In this document: piece by piece, positions 3,476 to 41,892 of the stretch
Numbering within the stretch: position 1 is the stretch's first letter
Layout: each line of letters begins with the position of its first letter
Assembly (NCBI RefSeq): GCF_018614055.1
Contig: NZ_JAGGPB010000043.1
Location: 186,001 to 250,000 of the forward strand
Direction of reading: 5' to 3'
DNA: 64,000 nucleotides
Source: Streptomyces sp. ISL-98
GTDB taxonomy: Bacteria; Actinomycetota; Actinomycetes; Streptomycetales; Streptomycetaceae
Position numbers and translations under genes: made by a program
The notes under the pieces: model-generated
Databases searched by the model: none
What the model was told of the DNA's origin: nothing
Seen by the model: only the letters and a program-made list of their open reading frames with translations

Positions 3476-4030
3476 GTGCAGCTCGTAGTCGCGCGGATCG
3501 GCCGCGCCCACGGGATCAAGGGCGAGGTCACCGTTGAGGTACGTACGGACGAGCCGGAGCTGCGGCTCGGGCCCGGCGCCGTACTCGCCACCGACCCCGC
3601 CTCCGCCGGGCCGCTGACCATCGAGACCGGCCGGGTGCACAGCGGCCGGCTCCTGCTGCGCTTCGAGGGCGTCAAGGACCGTACGGCCGCCGAGGCGCTG
3701 CGCAATACGCTCCTCATCGCCGAGGTCGACCCGCAGGACACCCCGGAGGACCCCGAGGAGTTCTACGACCACCAGCTGATGGACCTCGACGTCGTCCTGG
3801 CCGACGGCACCGAGATCGGCCGGATCGCCGAGATCACCCACCTGCCCTCGCAGGACCTGTTCATCGTGAAGCGGCCCGACGGCAGTGAGGTGATGATCCC
3901 CTTCGTCGAGGAGATCGTCGCCGAGATCGATCTCGAGGAGCAGCGCGCCGTCATCACGCCGCCGCCCGGCCTGATCGACGACAGCGAGGCGGAGGTCGTG
4001 TCGTCGAGGGACGAGGGCGACGACGCATGA
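3476..4030 (+). CDS. rimM: Ribosome maturation factor RimM
   Basis: A 184-residue 16S rRNA processing factor that binds S19 during 30S head assembly. The N-terminal RimM barrel starts [21 protein letters not shown], and the C-terminal PRC-barrel is seen in [12 protein letters not shown] through [12 protein letters not shown]. The GTG start has AGGAGAA seven bases upstream. The stop overlaps the trmD start by four bases (ATGA), the usual coupling of these two genes. A 116-bp gap before it (3360-3475) is the longest within this cluster and may hold a promoter. Confidence 0.96.
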
Positions 4031-19292: not shown

Positions 19293-20287
19293 TGAACGAC
19301 TCTTCCTGGGGGGCCCCACCCCGGAGCGACTACGCCGGTGCGTGGGGACCCTCCGACCCGGGGCCCGTCCCGGCGGGTCCCGCCCACGATGCGCACGGGG
19401 CCGATCAGACTCGCCCCATGCCCATCGTGCCCGAGGAGCCCATGCCCACCCCGCCACAGCGCCCGCAGAGGAAGCGTGCGGGCCGTGACCTGCGTGCCGC
19501 CATAGGGGTGGGCGCAGGGCTCGGCGCGGTGATCATCGCGTCGCTGTTCATCTGGAAGGCCGCCTTCGTCGGTGTGATAGCGGTCGCCGTGGTCGTCGGG
19601 CTCTGGGAGCTGACCTCGCGGCTGGAGGAGCGCAAGGGCATCAAGGCTCCGGTGGTGCCGCTCGCGGTCGGCGGTGCGGCGATGGTCGTGGCCGGTTACA
19701 TCAGGGGCGCCGAGGGCGCGTGGATCGCCATGGCGCTCACCGCGCTCGCGGTGCTCGTCTGGCGCATGACCGAGCCGCCCGAGGGCTACCTCAAGGACGT
19801 CACCGCCGGCGTCTTCGCCGCGTTCTACGTGCCGTTCCTGGCAACGTTCGTCGCGCTGATGCTCACGGCGGAGGACGGGGCGCAGCGTGTGCTCACGTTC
19901 CTGCTGCTGACGGTGGTCAGCGACACGGGTGCGTACGCCGTGGGCTGGCGCTTCGGCAAGACCAAGCTCGCGCCGCGCATCAGCCCGGGGAAGACCCGGG
20001 AAGGGCTGGCCGGTGCGGTCGCCTTCGCGATGGTGGCGGGTGCGCTGTGCATGCAGTTCCTGGTGCACGACGGGACGTGGTGGCAGGGTCTGCTGCTCGG
20101 TGTCGCGGTGGCGGCGAGTGCGACGCTCGGTGACCTCGGCGAGTCCATGATCAAGCGTGACCTCGGCATCAAGGACATGGGCACGCTGCTGCCGGGTCAC
20201 GGCGGAATCATGGACCGCCTGGACTCACTGCTGCCGACGGCTCCGGTGGTCTGGCTGCTGTTCGTGATCTTCGTAGGAACTGGCTGA
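19292..20287 (+). CDS. cdsA: Phosphatidate cytidylyltransferase
   Basis: A 331-residue membrane enzyme that makes CDP-diacylglycerol from phosphatidic acid and CTP. About 65 cytoplasmic Pro/Asp-rich residues precede several membrane segments. The family signature is present: SDTGAYAVGWRFGKTKLAP, ISPGKTREGLAGA, and GDLGESMIKRDLGIKDMG with PGHGGIMDRLDSLLP. It is the last core gene before the integrated element; only 76 bases separate its stop from the left attachment core. Confidence 0.96.
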   Translation: MNDSSWGAPPRSDYAGAWGPSDPGPVPAGPAHDAHGADQTRPMPIVPEEPMPTPPQRPQRKRAGRDLRAAIGVGAGLGAVIIASLFIWKAAFVGVIAVAVVVGLWELTSRLEERKGIKAPVVPLAVGGAAMVVAGYIRGAEGAWIAMALTALAVLVWRMTEPPEGYLKDVTAGVFAAFYVPFLATFVALMLTAEDGAQRVLTFLLLTVVSDTGAYAVGWRFGKTKLAPRISPGKTREGLAGAVAFAMVAGALCMQFLVHDGTWWQGLLLGVAVAASATLGDLGESMIKRDLGIKDMGTLLPGHGGIMDRLDSLLPTAPVVWLLFVIFVGTG

Positions 20288-20344
20288 CCTGCGGTTTTGG
20301 CGGTCAAGGGTCCGTTGTCCACAGGGCGGCGGGCCCTTTCCGTA

Positions 20345-20388
20345 TGTCTGCGACACTGGTATGACCATGCCTGTACCTGGAGAACTCA
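20345..20388 (+). repeat. attL: Left attachment site, with the stranded rlmN start
   Basis: The perfect core is ACCATGCCTGTACCTGGAGA followed by ACTCA (20364-20388). The match to the right site extends 19 bases further left with four mismatches. The site still holds the ATG and first seven codons of rlmN (MPVPGEL), after which the frame runs into element DNA and stops at 20415-20417. It lies 60 bases beyond the integrase stop codon. Confidence 0.92.
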
Positions 20389-20448: not shown

Positions 20449-21714
20449 CTACGCCGCCTGGGCCGTCTCTGGGCCGTCACCGCTCTCGGTGGGGCGTTCA
20501 TAGAGGTGGTTTACGGCCTTCCGCGTGCGGTTCTCGCTGCTCGGCATCAGGTGCGTGTACACCCGCAGAGTGAATCCAGGGTCCGTATGCCCGAGGTAGT
20601 TGCTCAGGGCCTTGATGTTCTCCCCTGCGTCCAAGAGAACCGAGGCGTAGAAGTGTCGCAGCGCGTGCATCCCGTGCTCCCGGGCAGAGGGCAGCGGGCT
20701 GCCGTCGTCCGGCCGCGAGATGAGCCCGGCGGCGGCGAGTGCGGGTTTCCACGGTGCGATGTTGAAGTTGCTGCGGTAGACGTGATTCCCCTGCGGCCCG
20801 GAGAAGACGAGCCGCCGCGTCACAGGGGGGCCGTCTGGCTTCATCCACGGAAGAGTGATTTCCACCGGCGGGTACCGCTCGATGTGCTGGGCCAGTGCCG
20901 CCCCGACTTGTTCAGGAAGCGGCACGTCGCGCACTTTGTCGCCCTTGGGTAGGCCGAAGTATGCCCGGCCCTTCACGACCTTGATCTGTAGCCCTACGTG
21001 CAACCAGCCAGTGAGGAAGCCCACCGCGTCGAGCGGGAGGCCAAAGATCTCACCCTGGCGCAGACCGCAGCCGGCTCCCAGATCCACCACGGATTGGTAG
21101 CGCGGGGGAAGTGCGTCACGGACCGCGAACACCTGTTGAGCCGTCCACGGCTTGACTCGCTCCCCACTCGGCTTCGGGGCTGCCACCGAACTCGCCCGGC
21201 AAGGATTTCGGGGAATGAGCGTGTCGTCTACCGCCGCGGTGAGCACGGCGGAGACGTTCGCGAAGATGCTGCGCCGGTACGACGATGCCAGCCCAGCGTC
21301 TTCGAGCTGTCGCACCCACGAGCGGATGTGGCTGGGCCGGAAGGACGCGAGGGGACGCGATCCGAGGTAGGGGAAGGCGTGAAGCCTGAGCCGAGTCTCT
21401 GTCGTTGTGCGTGTCGACACGTCAGTGGTCTGAGCCGCGATCCAGCGTTCCGCGTACTGCTTGAAGGTGGTTCGGCCGGCGGCGGGATCGATGTACGCTC
21501 CGCGCGACATGTCCGCCTCGATATGGGCGAGCCACTGGTCGGCGAGGCGCTTCTGGCGGTCGGGGAAAGACCTGCTCTTTTCGGTGCCGTCGGGACCCAC
21601 GTAGCGGGCGCGATATCGCATGCCGGTGCCGTGGCGATCGGTCTTCACGCGTCGAGTCCTGCCGTCGGTTCCTTGTTCGGTCTTGTACCAGCGGTCTTGG
21701 ATGTGGCCGGCCAC
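20449..21714 (-). CDS. int: Site-specific tyrosine recombinase (integrase)
   Basis: A 421-residue phage-type integrase. An N-terminal arm-binding domain (GTGMRYRARYVGPDG), a SAM-like core-binding domain (about residues 75-165) and the catalytic domain follow. Catalytic residues seen are Arg in GCGLRQGEIFGL, His-x-x-Arg in HALRHFYAS, His in LGHTDPGFTLRV and the Tyr of VYTH. The GTG at 21714 is chosen because AGGAG lies five bases upstream; the longer open frame to 21867 has an unnatural Pro/Ser-rich N-terminus. Its stop lies 60 bases from the left core site, as usual for integrases that recombine the adjoining attP. Confidence 0.95.
   Translation of the reverse strand: MAGHIQDRWYKTEQGTDGRTRRVKTDRHGTGMRYRARYVGPDGTEKSRSFPDRQKRLADQWLAHIEADMSRGAYIDPAAGRTTFKQYAERWIAAQTTDVSTRTTTETRLRLHAFPYLGSRPLASFRPSHIRSWVRQLEDAGLASSYRRSIFANVSAVLTAAVDDTLIPRNPCRASSVAAPKPSGERVKPWTAQQVFAVRDALPPRYQSVVDLGAGCGLRQGEIFGLPLDAVGFLTGWLHVGLQIKVVKGRAYFGLPKGDKVRDVPLPEQVGAALAQHIERYPPVEITLPWMKPDGPPVTRRLVFSGPQGNHVYRSNFNIAPWKPALAAAGLISRPDDGSPLPSAREHGMHALRHFYASVLLDAGENIKALSNYLGHTDPGFTLRVYTHLMPSSENRTRKAVNHLYERPTESGDGPETAQAA
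20460..20478 (+). repeat. Candidate arm-type integrase site, left end
   Basis: GGGCCGTCTCTGGGCCGTC, two GGGCCGTC units 11 bp apart, begins 72 bases inside the left core and lies within the 3' end of the integrase gene. An 18/19 match in the same orientation occurs near the right end at 40648-40666. Direct repeats flanking the core in circular form are typical of arm-type binding sites; binding is inferred. Confidence 0.5.
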
Positions 21715-21787: not shown

Positions 21788-22009
21788 TTATGCGGCGTCG
21801 GCGGCCTTGCGTTGGATGACGTAGGCGTGCACGTCGGCGGGGTCGTAGCGGATGTGCTTGCCGACACGGAATCCGGGCGGACCGATCCGCTTCTTGCGCC
21901 AGGCGTAGAGGGTCTCGACGCTCTCCAACTTGAAGATGACCACTAGGTCTTCGGGGGCGAGGTAGTGGTCCGGGAGATCAGCGCGGAGCGTCTGGGCGGC
22001 GGTTGCCAT
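21788..22009 (-). CDS. xis: Excisionase-type helix-turn-helix protein
   Basis: A 73-residue protein with a MerR-like winged helix: YLAPEDLVVIFKLESVETLYAW, RKKRIGPPGFRVGKHIRY and DPADVHAYV. This is the usual Xis of AICEs, which directs the integrase toward excision. The ATG at 22009 has GGAGAA upstream; a longer frame to 22222 would add a sequence without any fold. It lies 73 bases before the integrase start on the same strand, as in pSAM2. Confidence 0.88.
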   Translation of the reverse strand: MATAAQTLRADLPDHYLAPEDLVVIFKLESVETLYAWRKKRIGPPGFRVGKHIRYDPADVHAYVIQRKAADAA

Positions 22010-22213
22010 GTGACTTCTCCTCAGGGTGGCGTGGCCCCCTTCTGGGGGATCCGCAACAGCCGCCACGCCGCAACATTGCTGGTCAGCGGCTTGAATCTGT
22101 GGCGGATACGACTTTGTCGCGGATAGGTGCCGCCACGCGCGGGCGTGGCGGGCCTTCAAATGGGGTTGGTCTCGGGTCTTTTCGGGGCCCGCGCCTGTCC
22201 GAGGTGCGGGATT

Positions 22214-22422
22214 CTGCGTCACCGCGTCATCTGCGTCATTCGTGTCTCTGACCTGCGGTTTTGAGTGACGCAGAGGATTTGGGGTGCGTCACCGGTGACG
22301 CAGGCTTTCGTCACCGGGTGACGCGGGTGACGCGGGGTGACGCAGCCACGGTCGTCCTGCGTCACCGCTGTAGCGGCAGGTCAGGGGCCGTTGTCTGTCC
22401 TCGGGTGACGCAGGTGACGCAG
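22214..22422. repeat. Iteron cluster of GTGACGCAG repeats
   Basis: Copies of GTGACGCAG or its complement occur at 22214, 22265, 22285-22302 (an 18-bp perfect palindrome TGCGTCACCGGTGACGCA), 22318, 22327, 22337, 22357, 22405 and 22414; 22231 holds a near-copy. Those at 22318-22345 and 22405-22422 are head-to-tail tandem. Such iterons are typical of initiator or regulator binding at plasmid origins. Confidence 0.8.
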
Positions 22423-22537
22423 CGTCTCTTCTCTTAGGAAAAGAGAAAGGGGGTGTCTGTTGTGGTGCGGTACGCCTCAAGGCGTGAAGAGGGAGCCGCT
22501 TCGCGGCGCGACCATCAGGCGTCGTTGCCGCCGAACA

Positions 22538-22583
22538 GCAAGAGGAGCACCCCGGTCGTGGTGGCGCGTGGTGCTCTTCTTGC
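22538..22583 (-). terminator. Hairpin after the helicase gene
   Basis: Arms at 22538-22551 and 22570-22583 form a 14-bp stem with one mismatch and an 18-nt loop, starting 27 bases beyond the helicase stop. It would end the long minus-strand transcript before the iteron region. Confidence 0.55.
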
Positions 22584-22609
22584 TTGTCCGGTCGGCCGTG
22601 GGTCGCGGG

Positions 22610-24085
22610 TCAGAGCATCGGTTCTTGCTGGTGTGGCAGTGGGATCGGCGGGCGGGTCATCTCGATGTAGCGGCCCTCTTTGGTGCGGCCCCAGTCGATC
22701 AGGACGCCCCGGGCGGCGAGGGTCGGTTGGAGGCGCTTGAGGCGGTCGGAGAGGACTTTGCCCGTGGTGGGCCAGCCCTTGGGCAGGGGGCGGAAGTCGT
22801 CCCCGGTGTAGAGGCCGGTGAGGCAGTGCAGCCACTCGGAGGAGGTCATCCGTGTTTCTGCGCCTGCCGTGAGGCCGGCGGCGTGCTTGAGCACGGTCTG
22901 TGCGAGGAGGTCGCCTTCGATGACGTCGTCGTTGAGGTCGTCCAGGCTGGCCCGGTAGGCGTTGAGGGCTCCGAAGCCGGTCGCCGTGTCGAGCTGTGCG
23001 CACAGGTGGGCGAAGTCGGCCATGCGCAGGTCGGTGGGGATGTCTGCCCCGGCAGCGCGGACCTTGACGGTGAGGTCGAGCAGGGAGCCGAGGACGACGG
23101 GCAACACCTCCTCGAATTCCGCCCACAGTTCGGCCTCGGTACGCCGGACGCGAGGGCGTTCCAGGCGTAGCGGGAGGAGGCGTTCGGCGAGGTCGGGGCG
23201 GATGACGCCGACGTCGATGCCGGTCAGGAGCAGGGGCCGGCGGTAGCGGGAGCGGACCACGTCGCCGTCGGTGTACAGGGCGCGTTTGATGGTCTCGGCG
23301 CCGGTGACGATGCAGCACATGAGGTCGGACAGGTCCGGGGCCAGGTGAGAGAGGTTGTCCAGGGCGGTGACCCATCCGGCTGCCACGGCCGCGATCAGGT
23401 TCTCTTCGTCCTTCGGGGCGCGGCGCAGGTCGCCGCTCATGCCCTCGATGATCCGCACGAGCATCCGTCCGGCGGTGGACTTGCCCGCGCCCTGGGGGCC
23501 GGTGAGGAAGGGAGCGGGGACGGGCACGGACGGCCCGAGACAGCCGATGAGCCAGGCGATGGCCAGGCATTCGGTCTCCGCGTTGGCGAAGTTGGTCAGC
23601 CGTAGCAGGAGGTCGATGCCCTTGCCATCGGTGTCCCGCGCGGGCAGAGGGAGTTCGCCGGTGAGCTGGGTGCGTCGCCAGCAGACTTCCTGCGGGTCGG
23701 GGGTGATGATGTCCCAGCCGGTGGGGTGGATGCGGATGGACTGTCCGTCGTTGCGGCCCAGGTCGAGCCATGTCGCGCCGTCGAATCCGGGCGCAACGCG
23801 GATGTGGACCGGCTGTACGTCCTGGGTGATCGCGAGTGCTTCGATCAAGTCCAACGCCTCCTTGAGGGCGGTTCCGTTGAACACGCCGTGTCCGTCGTGG
23901 AAGAGGCCGACCATGAGTTCCTGCCGGTGGCTGCCCGAGGTGCCCTGTGAGCGGATCGGACGGGCCACGGGGTGCCCGTTCTTCTGCGCGTACACGGTCC
24001 CGTCAGCGGTGCGGAAGTACCGGAAGTGCTCTTGCGCGTAGTCGGCGATGACCTCGCGGGCCGGAGTCTTCTCGTCGTCGGACAT
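22610..24085 (-). CDS. Replication ATPase/helicase-like protein of the element
   Basis: A 491-residue protein with one ATP-binding core: Walker A FLTGPQGAGKST (about residue 197) and an acidic Walker B-like stretch (GWVTALDNLSHLAPDLS), like the DNA-primase-associated helicases of phages and AICEs. The C-terminal part (MTSSEWLHCLTGLYTG through LQPTLAARGVLIDWGR) looks like a DNA-binding winged helix. It starts 2 bases after the primase-polymerase gene stop, so both are made together; the pair probably unwinds and primes element DNA. The ATG at 24085 is chosen by this coupling. Confidence 0.75.
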   Translation of the reverse strand: MSDDEKTPAREVIADYAQEHFRYFRTADGTVYAQKNGHPVARPIRSQGTSGSHRQELMVGLFHDGHGVFNGTALKEALDLIEALAITQDVQPVHIRVAPGFDGATWLDLGRNDGQSIRIHPTGWDIITPDPQEVCWRRTQLTGELPLPARDTDGKGIDLLLRLTNFANAETECLAIAWLIGCLGPSVPVPAPFLTGPQGAGKSTAGRMLVRIIEGMSGDLRRAPKDEENLIAAVAAGWVTALDNLSHLAPDLSDLMCCIVTGAETIKRALYTDGDVVRSRYRRPLLLTGIDVGVIRPDLAERLLPLRLERPRVRRTEAELWAEFEEVLPVVLGSLLDLTVKVRAAGADIPTDLRMADFAHLCAQLDTATGFGALNAYRASLDDLNDDVIEGDLLAQTVLKHAAGLTAGAETRMTSSEWLHCLTGLYTGDDFRPLPKGWPTTGKVLSDRLKRLQPTLAARGVLIDWGRTKEGRYIEMTRPPIPLPHQQEPML

Positions 24086-24087
24086 GG

Positions 24088-24975
24088 CTACAGTCCCAAC
24101 TTGGTGCGGGCGTTGGTCCACGCGCCGGTGCAGTGCCGGAGGGATTCGCCCTTGGCCTGAGCGGCGGCAAAGAGGCGGGTGACGTGGGTGTCGGTCAGGC
24201 AGCCGCACCGGCCGTGGGTGGACAGCACGGCGAGGAAGGTCCGGTAGACGGTCGTGTGCACCGCGCTGCGGGCATCAGCAATGCGCTGCTCGGCCATGGC
24301 GATGCCACGGTCCAAGTAGACGGGCGTCCGATGACGGCATTCCCCGCCCCCGACCGGCGCGGGCACCGTGACGACGCCAGGTGCCGACAGGGCCGTGGAA
24401 GGCTCCCTCACGGCCAGCGCACGCACGGCGTCCGGCAGAGGGGTCATGGTGCCGGTTCCGGGCCCGAGCCACCGCGCGTAGGACATGAGCGACTTGATGT
24501 CCACGCCGTCACGGACAGCGTTCACGGAGCGCACGGTGCCCTGGTAGATCCAGTGCTCGCCGCGTGTGGTCGCCACCGTGCGGGTGAGCGGCAAGGTCGC
24601 CCGAGCCCATGCGACGGCTTCGGCGTTGTCCAGGTCCACGACGGTCAGCCCGGCCCCGCCCGGGTGGTAGGCGACGGATACGGCCTGCCGCCACGCAGGG
24701 GCCCAGGCGGAGGAGGTGATGACGCGGGTGTCGGTGGTGGCGGCGGCCCAGCCGTGGCACGCGGCGGGGCACTGGCAGGTGCCCGCGCTCCTCATGTGGG
24801 GCCGCCCACCGCACGCGCCGTCAGCACAGGCGCGGCAGTTTCCGAACGGCAGTTTTCCTGCCCGCAGGGGCAGCACTGGCACACCAGCCGTGGCCAGTGC
24901 CAGCGCGGTTCGCATGCAGTCCCCGCCGGCGTGATTCGTCACGCGCGGAAGCGTGGTCTTGCAGTCAGATGTCAT
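24088..24975 (-). CDS. Bifunctional DNA primase/polymerase (prim-pol) domain protein
   Basis: A 295-residue protein with the prim-pol fold found in replication proteins of AICEs and plasmids. The metal-binding motif is VVDLDN (about residue 126), and a second active-site region with TRGEHWIYQG and GVDIKSLMSYARWLGPG follows. The Cys-rich stretch CRACADGACGG near residue 45 may bind zinc. The ATG at 24975 has GGAG nine bases upstream. With the helicase at 22610-24085 it forms a split version of what many AICEs code as one protein. Confidence 0.82.
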   Translation of the reverse strand: MTSDCKTTLPRVTNHAGGDCMRTALALATAGVPVLPLRAGKLPFGNCRACADGACGGRPHMRSAGTCQCPAACHGWAAATTDTRVITSSAWAPAWRQAVSVAYHPGGAGLTVVDLDNAEAVAWARATLPLTRTVATTRGEHWIYQGTVRSVNAVRDGVDIKSLMSYARWLGPGTGTMTPLPDAVRALAVREPSTALSAPGVVTVPAPVGGGECRHRTPVYLDRGIAMAEQRIADARSAVHTTVYRTFLAVLSTHGRCGCLTDTHVTRLFAAAQAKGESLRHCTGAWTNARTKLGL

Positions 24976-25012
24976 GCTGGGATTTCTCCTGTTTCTGCGA
25001 AGGGACGGAGAG

Positions 25013-25053
25013 CCGGGGCGGTCGCGGTCTTTGGAGAGAGGCGACCGCCCCGG
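25013..25053. terminator. Hairpin upstream of the primase-polymerase gene
   Basis: A perfect 13-bp inverted repeat (CCGGGGCGGTCGC at 25013-25025, complement at 25041-25053, 15-nt loop) lies between two minus-strand genes. Its surrounding sequence (about 25000-25060) recurs with changes at 31896-31957 before the first gene of the operon. Confidence 0.65.
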
Positions 25054-25059
25054 GCACAT

Positions 25060-26842: not shown

Positions 26843-29056
26843 TCAGCTCGCGTCCCGCTTTCGGTTACGTTCCGCTACGACGGTGGTGATGTCGTCGCGC
26901 TTGATTCCGCGCTTGTTGACGAACTTGCCGTCGATGCGGCGCCCGACCTGCCCGGCGGTGATGCCGTAGGGCTTGAGGGCTGCGGTCAGGTGCGCGGTCT
27001 GCTCCTCGCCGCTCATGCGGGCCCAGTCGCCGTAGCGTTCGGGCCGCAGCTCCGCGAGGCGCTCCACGATCGTTTCGTTCCACACCTTGGCCTCACCGGT
27101 GGGCATGACCGCGAGGATGTCGGCCAGCAGGGTGTCTGCGACCTTCTCCTTCTTCGGCGCCTGCGGGTCGGGCAGCGTGCCGGCCGCCGCTCGGGCGGCC
27201 TTTGCGCGCTCGCAGATCTTGTCTGCGGTGGCGTTGTCGATGTAGTAGGAGCGGACGATCTGCGGGTTCGGTCCCGCCCCGACGAGGTAGCCGATGCCCA
27301 TGTCTTCGGCGGTGAACGAGGTGGCTCGGATGCCGTTCTTGTACATCGAGGTACCGAGGACCATGTCGTTCTCGGGCTGGCCCATGACCTGAAGGCAGAA
27401 GCGGATGCCGACGTTGGCGCTGATGGCCTTGGGCAGGCTGTCGGCGTCCGGGCGCTGCGTGCCGAGCAGCAGGATCACCCCGAGTGCGCGGCCGCGCTTG
27501 ATGATGGCGGTGGCCAGCTCGGCGGCCTTCTTGCCGAACTTCTCGTGGGTGAAGACTTCCTGGCACTCGTCGATGGACATGACCAGTGGGTGCAGGCCCA
27601 GCGATTTCTTCGCGGCGAGGGCGGGGGTGACCTTGTTCTCCGGGCAGATGTCCTTGGGCAGCTTGTTGATGACCCGCGCCCGACGGTCGAGTTCGCCGTA
27701 GACGTACTCCATGGCGTCCACGCAGCCCTCCACCGTGGCGTCATCTCCGGGGCCGGAGCCGTAGGAGTGGGAGATGGGCTGGAAGGAGGAGAAGTCGCCG
27801 GTGCCCTTGAACTCCCAGGGATGCAGCTCAGCAGTCGGGTCCATCGCCGCCGCGAGCAGCAGGATGCGCAGAGCGAACGTCTTGCCGCGGCCCGGCATGG
27901 CGCCGGTCAGGAAGTTCCCGTACATCAGGTCGAAGTCGACCTGCCGGCCGCGCGGGTCCGTGCCGTACGGGACGGGCTTGAACAGGGACGTGGTGCCGGT
28001 CTTGAGCAGCGGCCAGGATGGCTGCGGGGCGCGGGCCATGTCCTGGTCTCCTACCCACAGCATCACCCGCCCGGGGTGCTCCCCCGGTACGGGCTCCGGC
28101 CACACACAGCCCAGCGACTTGCGCAGACCCGACGCGAGCCGTTCCCGGCGGTCCAGCACATCGGACACGGTCACCCCGTACGGCAGATCCAGGTCAGCGC
28201 GCCAGCCCTTGCCGTCCCGCTGGATCGGGGCCTTGAACTCGACGGGCTTGCCCTTGGCCGCCTGCTTGTTGATCTCCGCGATACCGAGAGCGGTGAACGC
28301 CCGCGCCACGATGTCCGAGGTCAGGCGCTGCACCTGCGGCAGGTCCACAGCACGCGTGATGACCGGCGCATCCTCGGGCCGCCCCACCTGGCCCAGCGCT
28401 AGCAGCAGGGCACTGATGGAGATGGCCTGAAGCCAGCCGGGGGCCAGCACGTACAGGGCAAGGGCCGCAGCCATGCCGATCAGCGAGGCGAGTACGGCCA
28501 CCAGAGTTCGCAGCCGCACACGCGCGTCTCGCTGCCGGGAGAGCTTGAGGTAGGTGGCGGCGTCTTCCCTCTCCACCATCGCCAGTCGGACCGGCTCGCC
28601 TTCCTTGTCGGCAACCCACCGCAGGCTGCCGCCGATGAACTTGGCTGCCCCGCGCGGCGACAGCAGTGCGAGACGGGCCGCGTAGACCGGGGAGCGGAAG
28701 GCGTGGTAACCGGCCTTGTGGCCGTAGTGTCCGGCCACCCAGCCGGTGGCGGCCTTGAGTTCCGCCGTGGACTTCAGCCACATCGGGATGACCGGTCGGC
28801 GCTTGGCGCTCTTGATCCGGTCCATGAGCCCGGGCCCGACCGGGGCGGGGCCATCGACCATCAATGGGGCCGCCCCTGCACCCGACTGAGCCGGGGCCGG
28901 GCCGGTCGACTCGCTTGCCTCGGGGTCGGTTGACCCGGTACGGGCCGACCGTGCCTTGTCGAGGTCCACCACGTCCGCACCCGAGTCGGTTGCGGCGTCG
29001 GTGGCCATGTCGGCTTCGAGGCGGTTGAACAGTTCGCTTTCGTCGTCGTGATTCAC
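26843..29056 (-). CDS. traB: FtsK/SpoIIIE-type conjugal DNA translocase (TraB/TraSA-like)
   Basis: A 737-residue protein and the main transfer factor of this kind of element: a hexameric membrane pump for double-stranded DNA. An acidic N-terminus (about 100 residues) precedes two membrane segments near residues 185-225 (TLVAVLASLIGMAAALALYV, WLQAISISALLLALG). The FtsK motor follows, with Walker A GAMPGRGKT (about residue 395), Walker B LVMSIDECQEV and the LLLGTQRPDADSLP stretch. The last about 80 residues (GDWARMSGEEQTAHLTAALK and on) resemble the winged helix that reads short DNA repeats. The GTG start has GGAAGGA upstream. Confidence 0.92.
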   Translation of the reverse strand: MNHDDESELFNRLEADMATDAATDSGADVVDLDKARSARTGSTDPEASESTGPAPAQSGAGAAPLMVDGPAPVGPGLMDRIKSAKRRPVIPMWLKSTAELKAATGWVAGHYGHKAGYHAFRSPVYAARLALLSPRGAAKFIGGSLRWVADKEGEPVRLAMVEREDAATYLKLSRQRDARVRLRTLVAVLASLIGMAAALALYVLAPGWLQAISISALLLALGQVGRPEDAPVITRAVDLPQVQRLTSDIVARAFTALGIAEINKQAAKGKPVEFKAPIQRDGKGWRADLDLPYGVTVSDVLDRRERLASGLRKSLGCVWPEPVPGEHPGRVMLWVGDQDMARAPQPSWPLLKTGTTSLFKPVPYGTDPRGRQVDFDLMYGNFLTGAMPGRGKTFALRILLLAAAMDPTAELHPWEFKGTGDFSSFQPISHSYGSGPGDDATVEGCVDAMEYVYGELDRRARVINKLPKDICPENKVTPALAAKKSLGLHPLVMSIDECQEVFTHEKFGKKAAELATAIIKRGRALGVILLLGTQRPDADSLPKAISANVGIRFCLQVMGQPENDMVLGTSMYKNGIRATSFTAEDMGIGYLVGAGPNPQIVRSYYIDNATADKICERAKAARAAAGTLPDPQAPKKEKVADTLLADILAVMPTGEAKVWNETIVERLAELRPERYGDWARMSGEEQTAHLTAALKPYGITAGQVGRRIDGKFVNKRGIKRDDITTVVAERNRKRDAS

Positions 29057-29818: not shown

Positions 29819-30924
29819 GCGGCCGTCGCCTCAGTGCCGCCGCCCTCGGCGCGCTCTTGCTTGAGCGTGTCGCGGAGCATGCGGCCGTTGGCGGACGACG
29901 TACGGACCGCCTTACGGATCGCGTCGGCCGTCAGCTCGGCATCCGACCAGTCGGCCGTAACCTCACGGGCCTCGCTCAGCAGTTGGTCGGCGGTCCGGGT
30001 CGGTCGGGGCGTGCGGGCCGACTCGGGTACCCGACCGGTCGCCCGACGCGGCGTATGAGCCACGGCGGCGACCGCCTTCACCGGAGCCGACTCAGTCGGC
30101 CTTACGACCGCTACCGGCTCGCCCGACTCGACAGCGGCCGGAGCCGGGGCAACCGGCTCCACGTCGGCCGACTGGAGCGCGGGCACCTCCCGCACGGCGG
30201 GCACCGGTTCGGGGGCCGACTCATGCAGGTCAGACACCAACCGATTTATGGCGATGTCTGCCGTTTCATCCTGGTGCGGGTCGGGGGCGGTGAACATGGC
30301 CGCCAGGGCGGCGTCCGCGCCGCTGGTGACGCGTTCGCGCTGGATGTCCAGCAGGCGCACACCCAACGACGCGTCGCCCAACCCGACCTTCCGGGCGAGC
30401 TTCCAGGACGTGCGGTCCGACGATTTCCGTACTCGTGCTTGCGGGTGGTTCGCCGCTCGGGCGCGGTGGTAGGCCAGCGCCCTGACCACAGCGGCGGCCT
30501 TGGCTTCGGCCTCGATGTCGCGCCCGTCCTGGTGGACCACGATGCGGCGGGCCAGGAAGGCCATGCCTTCCGCCGACACGCACATGCCCATCGGCGTCAC
30601 CGCGTAGATGACGGTGCGGCCCGGGTCGTCGGCTGCCGTCGCGGCCATCGCTGAGGCGGCGGCGGGAAGAGCCCACAGGCCCAGTCGGATGATGGCCGGG
30701 GAGGACTGTCCCAGCATGGTCAGCCCGAGCAGCACGAGCGCCAGGACGGCTGTCGCGCCCTCACCGGCCGCGACCGCTCCGAGCGCCGTGCCCTTGCCGT
30801 AGGCGTGGCTGATGTTGCTGTACGTTCCCGCGCCACCGGCGACACCGGTGGCGAGCATGGGCACGAACGCAGCCGTCAGGACGACCTTCTGCGCTGTTGT
30901 CAGTGACTTTCGGTTGGTCATCAC
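29815..30924 (-). CDS. Spd-like membrane protein (DUF2637 type)
   Basis: A 369-residue protein. Four hydrophobic segments in the first about 125 residues (VVLTAAFVPMLATGVAGG, ATAVLALVLLGLTMLG, LGLWALPAAASAMAATAA, VIYAVTPMGMCVSAEGMAFL) match the DUF2637/SpdB arrangement. A basic helical segment (VRALAYHRARAANHPQAR) and a long Pro/Ala/Val-rich linker follow, ending in a predicted DNA-binding-like helix pair (DAELTADAIRKAVRTSSANG). Spd proteins spread the transferred DNA between mycelial compartments. The start overlaps the GGDEF gene stop. Confidence 0.8.
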   Translation of the reverse strand: MMTNRKSLTTAQKVVLTAAFVPMLATGVAGGAGTYSNISHAYGKGTALGAVAAGEGATAVLALVLLGLTMLGQSSPAIIRLGLWALPAAASAMAATAADDPGRTVIYAVTPMGMCVSAEGMAFLARRIVVHQDGRDIEAEAKAAAVVRALAYHRARAANHPQARVRKSSDRTSWKLARKVGLGDASLGVRLLDIQRERVTSGADAALAAMFTAPDPHQDETADIAINRLVSDLHESAPEPVPAVREVPALQSADVEPVAPAPAAVESGEPVAVVRPTESAPVKAVAAVAHTPRRATGRVPESARTPRPTRTADQLLSEAREVTADWSDAELTADAIRKAVRTSSANGRMLRDTLKQERAEGGGTEATAA

Positions 30925-31562
30925 GCCACCCCCCAGCCGGCGCCCGGGCGGCCCGCGCGGCGGCCGTTGACCGTCTCGCGTACCGGGGTCAGGCCCTCAG
31001 CGACGTACCAGCCGCCTCCGGCTTCCTTCGCCACGTACATCGCCTCATCCGCCCGGCGCATGAGCGCGGGCAGAGTGCCGGCCAAGTCACCGTCGTCGCG
31101 GATGGCGCCGAGAGAAGCGCCCAGCTCCACCCGCTGTCCGTCGAAGGTGAACGGCTCGCACAGCGTCTCGTGCAGGTCCTCCAGAGCCGACTGCAGATCC
31201 ACGTGGTGCGCGGCCGTGATCACAGCGGCGAACTCGTCCCCGCCCAGCCGTGCCGCGCATCCACCCATGCGGATCGCCCAGTCGTTCAGGCGGGCGGCGA
31301 CGATGACCAGCCCGACATCCCCGGCCGCGTGGCCGTGGGTGTCGTTCAGGGCCTTGAAGCCGTCGAGGTCGATGACCACCACGGACGTGAGGCCCTTGCG
31401 CAGGTCGCGCCCGGCGCGGGCCTCGAACGCCTCACGGCACATCAGGTTCGTCAGCGGGTCGCGGCGCGCGGCCTCGATCCGGCGCCGCAGCCGCAGGCTG
31501 TGCAGTGACCATCCGGCCGCGAGCGGGAGGGCGACGGACAGGGCCGCCATGCTCTGGCTCAT
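30921..31562 (-). CDS. GGDEF-domain protein (predicted diguanylate cyclase)
   Basis: A 213-residue protein with a short N-terminal hydrophobic segment (ALSVALPLAAGW) and a complete GGDEF domain: RRDPLTNLMCREAFEARA, metal-binding VVVIDLDGFKALNDTHGH, and active-site RLGGDEFAAV (about residue 105). The product-inhibition I-site, expected as RxxD just upstream, reads RMGG, so feedback control is probably absent. c-di-GMP steers sporulation in Streptomyces through BldD and RsiG-WhiG. Both ends overlap neighbouring genes by four bases, so it is part of the transfer operon. Confidence 0.9.
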   Translation of the reverse strand: MSQSMAALSVALPLAAGWSLHSLRLRRRIEAARRDPLTNLMCREAFEARAGRDLRKGLTSVVVIDLDGFKALNDTHGHAAGDVGLVIVAARLNDWAIRMGGCAARLGGDEFAAVITAAHHVDLQSALEDLHETLCEPFTFDGQRVELGASLGAIRDDGDLAGTLPALMRRADEAMYVAKEAGGGWYVAEGLTPVRETVNGRRAGRPGAGWGVA

Positions 31563-31879
31563 GCCGCCACCTCCCCGGCCTGGGCGGAACGGCCTGCGGC
31601 GCGGGCCGCGCGCAGGAACGGCACCGTGCGGGTCAGCGCGTCCGCGTACAGCGCGTCCCACGCCGCGACCTCATCCCCGGCCTCCCCCTGCGCGGCCAGT
31701 TCCGCGATCACCTCGCGGGCCACCGCCTCACGGGCCGCCCGATCCTCGGGCGACTCCGGGGTGAGCGGGCCACGGAACAAGTCGCGGTCCAGACCCAGCG
31801 GCAGCTCGTCGAAGCCGACTGCCAGTTCCTTGAACTTGATGTCGTTCAGCACGTGATGGTTGCCGATGTAGCTACGCAT
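31559..31879 (-). CDS. Hypothetical protein heading the transfer operon
   Basis: A 106-residue soluble protein (MRSYIGNHHVLNDIKFKELA, then an Ala/Glu-rich helical second half). No motif is recognised. The ATG at 31879 has GGAGA upstream; it is the first gene after the long leader that begins near 32513. Its stop overlaps the GGDEF gene start. Confidence 0.68.
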   Translation of the reverse strand: MRSYIGNHHVLNDIKFKELAVGFDELPLGLDRDLFRGPLTPESPEDRAAREAVAREVIAELAAQGEAGDEVAAWDALYADALTRTVPFLRAARAAGRSAQAGEVAA

Positions 31880-33464: not shown

Positions 33465-33938
33465 ATGGGACGCATCGACTACCTTCACGACCCCGACGCT
33501 CCGCCGGCCAATTCCGTCGTGCCGTCCGTTGTGGCGTTCGTGCAGAACGACGCGGGACAAGTGCTGATGATCAAGCGCTCCGACAACGGCCGGTGGGCAC
33601 TGCCGGGAGGTGGCCATGATGTTGGCGAGTCCATCAGCGACACCGTGATTCGCGAGGTCTGGGAAGAGACCGGGATCAAGGCGGAAGTCATCGACATGTC
33701 GGGGATCTACACCGACCCCGGCCACGTGATGCTGTACGACGACGGCGAGGCCCGGCAGCAGTTCAGCATCTGCTTTCGCGCGCGACCGGTCGGTGGTGAT
33801 GTTCGTACTAGTGACGAGACGACACAGGTCCGCTGGGTCGACCCAGCGGACCTGCCAGAGTTCGACATCCACCCGACCATGCGACTCAGGATTGAGCACG
33901 CGATGGACGGGACGCGGACGGTGCCCTACATCGGTTGA
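33465..33938 (+). CDS. NUDIX hydrolase, possible Pif-type immunity factor
   Basis: A 157-residue Nudix protein with a full box GGHDVGESISDTVIREVW followed by EETGI (about residues 49-71). The start has AAGGGAG upstream and lies 2 bases after the XRE stop, so the two are one unit. In pSAM2 the immunity factor Pif carries a Nudix signature and blocks redundant transfer between element carriers; the same job is suggested by context but not shown. Its last 13 bases overlap the convergent HD gene. Confidence 0.83.
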   Translation: MGRIDYLHDPDAPPANSVVPSVVAFVQNDAGQVLMIKRSDNGRWALPGGGHDVGESISDTVIREVWEETGIKAEVIDMSGIYTDPGHVMLYDDGEARQQFSICFRARPVGGDVRTSDETTQVRWVDPADLPEFDIHPTMRLRIEHAMDGTRTVPYIG

Positions 33939-34498
33939 CGCTGGGCGGTAGCGAGCCGTTCGAGGACCCGTGCCGTGCTCGCCAGAATCTCAGGTTCGGC
34001 GCGACGGATGAACGTGCCGATCAGGCTGTCCGGCCCGTAACGCCCGGTGATCTCGTTCACCCGGTCCACCGGATTCGTAGGGTTGCCATCCGGCGTGGTG
34101 TTCATGTCGCAGTAGCAGAGCGCGTCATTCAGATGAGAGTGCTCCCTGGGGAACTCGTCCTCCAGCTCCTCGCGCAGTCCGCGCGCCTCCGCTTCCATCC
34201 AGGCACACGAGTGGTGCGCCACGAGTCGTACGACGCGCTCGTCAGCGTGGACCGTGTCTCGGAGGTGCCGCGCGCCATCCAGCGGGTGAAAGCCGGTCTT
34301 GGCGAGGTCCGGCGAGTAGCCGATGTCATGGAGCACTGCGGCAGCCTCCATCAGCTCGGCGTCCGCGCCGAGGATCGGGGCGAGAGTTCGGGCTCGCTCC
34401 GCTACCCCCAGCGAGTGCTTCCACCTACGGGGGAGCGGCTTAGCCAGCAGCGACTCAGCGAGGGGGTAGGCCCACTCGGTCAAGCTCGTGGTGCTCAC
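33926..34498 (-). CDS. HD-domain phosphohydrolase-like protein
   Basis: A 190-residue protein with the metal ligands of an HD domain: RRWKHSLGVAERA (first His), AAVLHDIGYSPDL (HD pair) and VRLVAHHSCAW (later His), then a Asp-rich segment ALCYCDMNTTPDG. Likely a nucleotide or phosphate hydrolase of unknown substrate. Such HD proteins accompany GntR and Nudix genes on many Streptomyces AICEs. The GTG start overlaps the GntR gene stop. Confidence 0.8.
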   Translation of the reverse strand: MSTTSLTEWAYPLAESLLAKPLPRRWKHSLGVAERARTLAPILGADAELMEAAAVLHDIGYSPDLAKTGFHPLDGARHLRDTVHADERVVRLVAHHSCAWMEAEARGLREELEDEFPREHSHLNDALCYCDMNTTPDGNPTNPVDRVNEITGRYGPDSLIGTFIRRAEPEILASTARVLERLATAQRQPM

Positions 34499-40763: not shown

Positions 40764-40807
40764 TGTCTGCCACACTGGAAGAACCATGCCTGTACCTGGA
40801 GAACTCA
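40764..40807 (+). repeat. attR: Right attachment site
   Basis: The 25-bp core (40783-40807) repeats the left site exactly and includes the rlmN start codon and seven codons; 19 more bases to its left match with four changes. Because the core restores the first codons, rlmN stays in frame, but everything upstream of about 40764 is element DNA. Confidence 0.92.
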
Positions 40808-41892
40808 CTTTCGTCGCGCCGCGCGGAGCCAAGAAGCCCCCGCGGCATCTCGCCGACCTCACGCCCGCCGAGCGCCGCGAGGCCGTGGCTGCGATCGGCG
40901 AGAAGCCGTTCCGTGCCAAGCAGCTTTCGCAGCACTACTTCGCGCGGTACGCGCACGACCCCGCGGAGTGGACCGACATTCCCGCCGGTTCGCGCGAGAG
41001 GCTCCAGGCGGAGCTGCTGCCCGACCTGATGACCGTGCTGCGGCACATCAGCTGCGACGACGACACGACCCGTAAGACCCTGTGGAAGCTGCACGACGGC
41101 ACGCTCGTCGAGTCCGTGCTGATGCGCTACCCGGACCGGGTCACCATGTGCATCTCCTCGCAGGCCGGGTGCGGCATGAATTGCCCGTTCTGCGCGACCG
41201 GGCAGGCGGGGCTCGACCGCAATCTGTCGACCGCCGAGATCGTGCACCAGATCGTGGACGGCATGCGCGCGCTGCGCGACGGTGAGGTCCCCGGCGGGCC
41301 CGCCCGGCTGTCCAACATCGTCTTCATGGGCATGGGCGAGCCGCTCGCCAACTACAAGCGGGTCGTGGGCGCCATCCGGCGGCTGACCGACCCCGAGCCG
41401 GACGGACTCGGCCTCTCGCAGCGTGGGATCACCGTGTCCACGGTGGGCCTGGTCCCGGCGATGCAGCGCTTCTCGGACGAGGGCTTCAAGTGCCGCCTCG
41501 CCGTGTCGCTGCACGCGCCGGACGACGAGCTGCGCGACACGCTCGTGCCGGTCAATACGCGCTGGAAGGTGCGTGAGGTGCTGGACGCGGCGTGGGAGTA
41601 CGCCGAGAAGTCCGGCCGCCGGATCTCCATCGAGTACGCGCTGATCCGCGACATCAACGATCAGGCGTGGCGCGGTGACCTGCTCGGCCGCCTCCTCAAG
41701 GGCAAGCGTGTGCACGTCAACCTGATCCCGCTCAACCCGACGCCGGGCTCGAAGTGGACCGCCTCCCGTCCCGAGGACGAGAAGGCCTTCGTCGAGGCGA
41801 TCGCCGCCCATGGCGTGCCCGTGACCGTACGGGACACGCGTGGCCAGGAGATCGACGGAGCGTGCGGGCAGCTGGCAGCTTCGGAGCGGTAG
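40786..41892 (+). CDS. rlmN: Dual-specificity RNA methyltransferase RlmN
   Basis: A 368-residue radical-SAM enzyme that puts C2-methyl on A2503 of 23S rRNA and A37 of some tRNAs. The cluster CxxxCxxC is in GCGMNCPFC, and the C-terminal catalytic Cys is in [28 protein letters not shown] and [17 protein letters not shown] are typical. The first eight codons lie in the attachment core, so the coding sequence is whole although the element sits against it. Expression now depends on sequence delivered by the element. Confidence 0.96.

Follow-up and report, generated by a model that had tools for sequence, protein, structure and literature searches.

An iteron array behind the RepPP gene as the probable replication origin of a Streptomyces integrative element

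The dense array of short repeats between the replication genes and xis of a 20.4-kb integrative element, carried by a Streptomyces-like genome, is very probably the iteron-type replication origin of the excised element, served by the initiator RepPP and by the Prim-Pol encoded next to it. The origin role, which the original prediction had suggested as one possibility for this site, is supported by its synteny and conservation, by covariation, and by homology with a replicon already published. The site lies within the stretch of DNA analyzed here (64 kb, hereafter the window), and the mode of replication would probably be theta.

About ten copies of GTGACGCAG in both orientations had been predicted, and we counted 11 sites at no more than one mismatch, seven of them exact and the others represented by ATGACGCAG, GTGACGCAC and two copies of GTGACGCGG, with 12 TGACGC cores in the array. 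The densest 210 bp of the window held all 11 sites, and the maximum per 210 bp in 100 third-order Markov simulations of 64 kb was 4, reached once. Head-to-tail pairs, also foreseen, are present with a 9-bp step (22318/22327 and 22405/22414). The 18-bp palindrome exists as a perfect TGCGTCACCGGTGACGCA at 22285-22302, once in the window, but the printed relatives do not conserve it, and it was dropped as a key feature. The array lies where it had been placed, bounded by the stop codon of RepPP (22610) and the probable start of xis (22009), in a region that contains no genes but is not free of mechanical open reading frames, the xis frame being readable upstream to a GTG at 22222. A search of the host genome with positions 22200-22440 returned the window array as its sole match at E ≤ 0.001. 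The array of one relative (L021) is about 27 bp longer by three extra tandem 9-bp units, which suggests array growth by unit steps.

The element carries all the features of an AICE (tyrosine integrase, xis, att repeats, Rep and an FtsK-like TraB), with TraB and xis scoring below curated cut-offs (Table 1). Its probable ends are two 44-bp repeats; the left flank holds a CTP-transferase (cdsA-like) gene and the insertion point is the 5' end of rlmN, whose promoter the element may supply, because the right repeat covers the rlmN start codon. The cargo includes GGDEF (diguanylate cyclase) and HD-domain proteins (30921-31661 and 33926-34498). Just outside the left repeat, at 20284-20299, there is a 16-bp exact copy of CTGACCTGCGGTTTTG, which is part of the origin (22248-22263); with a BLAST E of 0.009, this copy may be due to chance. 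The host genome yielded nine Prim-Pol matches and one RepPP match, and no iteron array was found at the other eight of the nine Prim-Pol loci (3.5 kb each; the top 7-mer had at most five copies).

Table 1. Features of the element and of its putative origin, in window coordinates.
Feature	Position	Strand	Remarks
Left att repeat	20345-20388	+	44 bp, 91% identical to 40764-40807
Tyrosine integrase	20449-21714	-	PF00589; inferred start
Probable xis	21788-22009	-	HTH_17-like, just under Pfam cut-off; inferred start
Conserved origin block (whole)	22193-22592 (approx.)	-	Column conservation, 81 rows
Right-end motif	22195-22213	-	Conserved; consensus of relatives GAAATCCGCACCTCGGACAG
Iteron array	22214-22422	.	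11 GTGACGCAG-like sites; relatives use the same slots
Iterons, + strand	22265, 22295, 22318, 22327, 22337, 22405, 22414	+	7 sites
Iterons, - strand	22214, 22231, 22284, 22357	-	4 sites
TGACCTGC motif	22249-22256	+	One copy within the array
Second TGACCTGC motif	22377-22384	-	Opposite orientation
AT-rich inverted repeat with TCCTAAG	22426-22449	.	Candidate unwinding element (putative role)
GCCGC-TTC-GCGGC hairpin	22495-22507	.	Conserved
Hairpin GCAAGAAGAGCACC / GGTGCTCCTCTTGC	22538-22583	-	Probable RepPP transcription terminator (putative role)
RepPP initiator	22610-24085	-	491 aa; predicted D5/SF3-like ATPase and C-terminal winged helix (residues 393-477)
Prim-Pol (bifunctional primase/polymerase) ORF	24088-25059	-	PF09250, E 2e-9; true start may lie inward
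TraB/FtsK-like transfer protein	26843-29056	-	Below family cut-offs
Right att repeat	40764-40807	+	Covers start codon of rlmN (40786-41892)

The association between the array and RepPP was followed across genomes. RepPP relatives were found in 124 of 295 genomes of the genus (about two fifths), and in 28 of 30 kept loci an array of 5-13 sites lies behind RepPP; L016 and L027, which have frame stops, were excluded from the 30-locus count, and both are within the later set of 177 proteins. A scan of named genomes, sharing some strains with the 295-genome search, gave 261 RepPP relatives, of which the best 80, that is, the close ones, were kept. All of these best 80 had at least four sites per 250 bp, starting 143-246 bp after RepPP, and 79 had at least six, the controls being no more than three sites upstream of RepPP and no more than two inside the gene. 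At least four TGACGC sites were found within 600 bp behind 176 of 177 distinct close RepPP proteins, the sole exception being L111 with three. This set was obtained by merging 14 repeats of an identical RepPP protein, which reduced 191 to 177, included 80 more regions hand-picked from rows of the 295-genome search, and left out L101 (stop in the match). The slots of the array are fixed: across 171 anchorable arrays the median was 12 cores over a span of 206 bp (5-95%, 204-217), with same-strand neighboring sites mostly 9 bp apart. The tandem-iteron pattern occurred in 92 of the 295 genomes, and its reversed control in four (five matches). When the two lists were compared by eye, 83 of these 92 genomes were among the 124 with a RepPP match and nine outside them; seven of the nine were inspected, G042 and G179 being left out.

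The conserved unit is larger than the array as originally delimited (about 22193-22592 vs 22214-22422) and consists of the terminator hairpin, the GC hairpin, a ACAGACACC box, the AT-rich box, the iterons and the right-end motif. Over 177 blocks, the 32 bp adjoining the first iteron have a mean AT content of 47%, compared with 34% for the whole block, and at least one copy of TGACCTGC was found in 154 blocks, compared with 6 of 177 shuffled ones, with two or more copies in 80. On the xis side, conservation falls 20 bases beyond the last repeat: positions 22193-22212 score 1.55 bits, the two 20-bp bins that follow toward xis score 0.37 and 0.21, and a partial recovery is seen nearer to xis (0.87 and 0.72 bits in the bins of 22093-22132). 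The blocks were also scored for TTGTCCACA, which we take to be the DnaA-box consensus. No exact copy was found in the 177 blocks, and at one mismatch there was one, compared with nine in shuffled blocks; a DnaA-dependent origin was dropped on this result.

Genes on the xis side vary among loci that keep the array. An integrase and xis like those of the window were found in 34 of 80 loci (integrase identity 55-82%), a divergent integrase (22-31%) in 23, and no BLAST match in another 23, ten printed examples of which resemble other tyrosine integrases by eye; the xis of the window had no match in 46 of the 80. The long ORFs that come first behind the array form seven families of 34, 18, 13, 10, 2, 2 and 1 members; these "integrase families" are clusters, at an identity of at least 38%, of first ORFs with a minimum length of 330 aa, and part of them were checked to be integrases. 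The RepPP tree comprised the window and 79 of the 80 loci and was weakly resolved (of its 77 inner branches, 14 were starred and 34 open). On this tree array type, scored as A when the A fraction at the first iteron base exceeded 0.4, changes 8 times (shuffled mean 23.8, minimum 19), and the downstream ORF family 41 times (shuffled mean 41.3). With stricter A/G labels (65 rows) array type changes 4 times. These counts indicate that integrase genes are exchanged and that array type is kept along the RepPP lineage. Together with the drop in conservation, they place the exchange of the integrase module immediately beyond the origin block. The array had also been proposed as a control site shared by replication and excision, an idea that was dropped on these two grounds: the array stays with RepPP while integrases differ, and conservation drops before xis is reached.

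Six plasmids whose RepPP has 58-70% identity carry the array behind RepPP with ParA as the next annotated gene; in four, the annotation also includes a recombinase family gene some 2-3 kb beyond it. The block of three free plasmids, L034-L036, is inverted relative to RepPP (71-72% identity). The minus-strand alignment of L034 has 71.7% identity over 300 columns (E 2e-37), and its plus-strand alignment 64.6% (E 7e-16), as inverted iterons predict. L037 and L038 gave shorter minus-strand matches (76 columns in L038), and L033 no BLAST match to the block at E 0.001; the aligned flanks look alike in all six plasmids. Beyond the iterons, the plasmid blocks share the ACAGACACC box, the TCCTAAG/CTTAAG AT-rich box, the TGACCTGC motifs and a right-end motif whose last bases are GGACA. 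The origin block thereby appears as a movable unit.

Among 14 further loci, four hold orphan arrays, that is, complete class I arrays without an adjoining class I RepPP: L137, L138, L144 and L146, with arrays at positions 3947, 3862, 3912 and 3987, respectively. L137 retains xis-like and broken integrase-like frames and L138 retains int and xis; both look like decayed elements. The elements of L144 and L146 (20 kb examined in each) have a RepPP of their own, which is of another class (33% identity), with a GCGGACGCT array directly behind it. Orphan arrays could be either remnants or origins served in trans. Seven of the 14 have no slot-type array: L139, L140, L141, L143, L147 and L148, with 2-3 sites, and L142, with a tandem run of five. 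L145 has a RepPP of 88% identity, and L149 and L150 are at contig ends.

Sequence searches placed RepPP in none of the families examined. There was no Pfam match above cut-off (VapE-like below cut-off in 25 of 32 RepPPs), no match to NCBIfam models, no plasmid Rep or RCR family at E ≤ 1 among the 32 RepPPs, and no better E than 0.13 in a search of solved-structure sequences. An AlphaFold2 model built on 32 sequences (pLDDT 74.8; residues 221-299 of low confidence) was compared with known folds. VIA-align matched it to the SaPI5 primase-helicase (7ola; Z 13.8, 302 residues aligned, rmsd 3.9) and to pox D5/E5 (Z up to 13.3), with lower scores for AsfvPrimPol (10.7), NrS-1 (8.7), PriRep1 (7.9), SaPIBov1 Rep (7.1) and Cch (6.7); Foldseek TM-scores were modest (at most 0.46 among the matches shown, query-normalized). 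The C-terminal domain, modeled alone, gave a confident winged helix (pLDDT 85.7). Among its best matches were plasmid Rep-DUE and RepE complexes, Orc1 and the P4 origin-binding domain (1ka8; Z 5.7, rmsd 2.9, 75 residues aligned), which we regard as generic because all have Z ≤ 7, and Foldseek with this domain alone gave no match at E ≤ 0.001. The prediction for RepPP is thus a helicase of the D5/SaPI type that carries a winged helix at its C-terminal end.

More distant initiators have iterons of their own. Of 24 loci with a RepPP of 32-70% identity, 22 have an own-class array behind it, which is weak in L130 (four GACGC), L136 (three) and L186 (four), and no array was found in the other two, L134 and L191; L131, whose contig ends too early, was outside this count. 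The iteron units were GGGGGACGCAG, GGGACGCAC (pFP11, pSTS2), GTGACGCAC, GGGGACGC, ATGACGCT, GCGGACGCT and, in L189, GGGYGCT. The arrays of L188-L190 overlap an extended RepPP open frame in its 3' part. The L189 unit lacks the GACGC core (CGGGTGCT).

Among close relatives, a change of the first iteron base tends to extend to the majority of the copies within one array, and we looked for RepPP columns that inform on array type in 175 of the 177 arrays (at least five sites), 154 of which have a clear type. The most informative columns were 469, 403, 489, 404, 474, 465 and 423, in which 469 ranked first, and the top 17 were all at residue 400 or beyond, that is, in the winged helix and the tail (mean MI/H 0.119 for the winged helix and 0.074 for the tail, with 0.040 and 0.057 for the other domains). 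Residue 469 is K in the RepPP of the window and lies at the wing tip in both RepPP models. Of 119 G-type arrays, 99 go with K, R or N at this residue and the other 20 with S or G; of 35 A-type arrays, 33 go with a different residue, in most cases S, and the other two with K, R or N. The association has a p-value of 3.7e-6, which is not a probability of coupling because the columns share one tree. There were four supported independent pairs, of which 3.5 agree and none oppose (p-value 0.125); with 80 loci there were two. For the larger set, the full RepPP tree gave 10 changes of array type, and a tree built from residues 1-400 gave 20 (shuffled types on the latter: mean 32, minimum 27). This covariation of wing residue 469 with the first iteron base is suggestive; as there are just four supported independent pairs, we do not claim residue 469 as a proven determinant.

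These data are compatible with the following model of initiation. RepPP, encoded just upstream, would bind the 9-bp iterons through its C-terminal winged helix, with the wing reading the first iteron base, as the covariation suggests. The roughly twelve copies, which occupy fixed slots across 206 bp, would then assemble a RepPP multimer, probably a hexameric helicase of the D5/SaPI kind given the predicted fold. Since no DnaA box was found, this complex would open the AT-rich box beside the array without DnaA, and the co-encoded Prim-Pol would, by analogy, make primers for extension by a host polymerase.

Other roles for the array can be set against that of an origin. With xis about 200 bp downstream of it on the same strand, the array might serve the xis-int operon as an operator or control site, or be one shared by replication and excision, bound by a regulator or by Xis. 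This is very unlikely, however, given the loci that have no match to the xis of the window, the seven sequence families of the first long ORF, the conservation drop before xis, the flips in block orientation and the ParA gene that comes next in the six plasmids, even though four of these list a recombinase family gene further on. About equally improbable is a copy-number or partition locus (handcuffing, parS-like) that would not be the origin proper. Multiple iterons are typical of control loci and ParA genes adjoin the array in the six plasmid records, but integrated elements carry the same block behind RepPP, and the array of the window is flanked by xis and RepPP, with no ParA match among the 16 window proteins scanned with Pfam.

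A transfer site (clt/TRS) bound by the FtsK-like TraB is likewise very unlikely. The array follows RepPP, about 4.4 kb from traB, its sites run in both orientations, unlike a direction signal, and iteron class differs among RepPP groups, array type following the RepPP tree; on the other side, published clt sites hold short repeats (pWTY27, pJV1, pSVH1) and are not always located at tra, as in pIJ101, according to the accessible text of PMC3583192. Recognition of the origin as a long stem-loop and not through iteron sequence, as proposed for pWTY27 and pRN1 by the authors of PMC3583192 and PMC4234260 in the text available, would agree with the single-strand DNA fold (z -7.45) and is unlikely rather than far-fetched. 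Inverted iterons alone raise such a z, however, and the tendency of the first base to shift in the majority of an array's iterons, together with its association with RepPP residues, fits sequence reading.

If the array is indeed the origin, it would offer a short cis sequence for minimal vectors, a route to predict element compatibility from sequence, and a natural series of initiator-iteron pairs for testing change of origin specificity and initiator-origin co-evolution. A further reading, which we consider possible yet doubtful, is that RepPP replicons make up a large family whose constant origin chassis (fixed slots, TGACCTGC sites and AT box, able to move and invert as a single block) is re-keyed by concerted iteron change matched by wing residue 469, the proposed keys being RTGACGCAG, GGGGGACGCAG, GGGACGCAC, GCGGACGCT and GGGYGCT. 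Such keys would decide which mobile elements are able to coexist in one cell, and the orphan arrays of L137, L138, L144 and L146 could then be satellites replicated in trans by a resident RepPP.

Among known systems, classical iteron plasmids (RepE, TrfA kind) depend on DnaA and are defined by a DnaA box and a Rep_3-type initiator without a helicase domain, and in both respects they differ from the system of the window. Phage P4 alpha, SaPI Rep and pRN1 ORF904 resemble RepPP in predicted fold (primase, D5/SF3 helicase, winged helix), with about 10% identity in the structural alignments to this kind of protein, but in the window Prim-Pol and helicase are separate genes. The available text of the sources attributes helicase and primase activities to the P4 and SaPI initiators (PMC7145576), groups the D5, P4 alpha and pRN1 helicases together (PMC9611036), and describes for pRN1, which unlike the window uses a stem-loop, an origin downstream of the replication gene that still works when moved (PMC4234260).

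pSAM2 is, like the element described here, an AICE of Streptomyces, but its RepSA is described as a HUH rolling-circle initiator (PMC3218068, accessible text), and RepPP has no such family match. The initiator thus differs in class from that of pSAM2, as had been predicted, because it belongs to the Prim-Pol plus RepPP class. The further claim of a different initiation system holds with respect to pSAM2, but the class had already been described for SLP1 (PMC3218068, same text), which, with other RepPP-type AICEs, shares the gene pair (SCO4617 Prim-Pol and SCO4618 in SLP1) and its location in integrative elements of Streptomyces. In the accessible text of that paper the word "iteron" never occurs, and section 7 names no origin for the RepPP class. 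A description of the origin of integrative RepPP elements was not found in the literature searched, which covered few subscription journals and included the available text of PMC3212956 and PMC9513070.

Iteron origins with Rep binding have been reported for pFP11 and pWTY27 (PMC3583192, accessible text, as for all that follows from this source). pWTY27 resembles the window by its published description: RepB is a predicted primase/polymerase, RepA has 522 aa, a 300-bp non-coding sequence adjoining repA is required for replication, and there are short repeats in both orientations as well as a RepA footprint. Its repeat is GTGGGAAC, unlike that of the window, and a primer search for pWTY27 gave one match, which was not RepPP-like. 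pFP11 (NC_006911) has, as in the window, a Prim-Pol gene followed by a RepPP homolog (35% identity over 91% of RepPP, E 1e-49) and then by CAGGGACGCAC-type repeats with the TGACCTGC motif. We infer that this homolog is the Rep of the pFP11 literature, which is reported to bind its iterons, with bidirectional theta replication (PMC3583192, citing another paper). Unlike the element in the window, pFP11 is a free plasmid with iterons of another class. A small annotated gene separates its RepPP from the array, and the 9.5 kb viewed, for which the gene table is incomplete, has no annotated int or xis. Judging from these published descriptions, the Prim-Pol/RepPP iteron replicon is a kind already known from pFP11 and pWTY27. 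What the present comparison adds is the proposed assignment of such an origin in integrative elements, its fixed geometry, its separation from xis, its apparent inversion between integrated and three free replicons, and a suggestive covariation of initiator and iterons.
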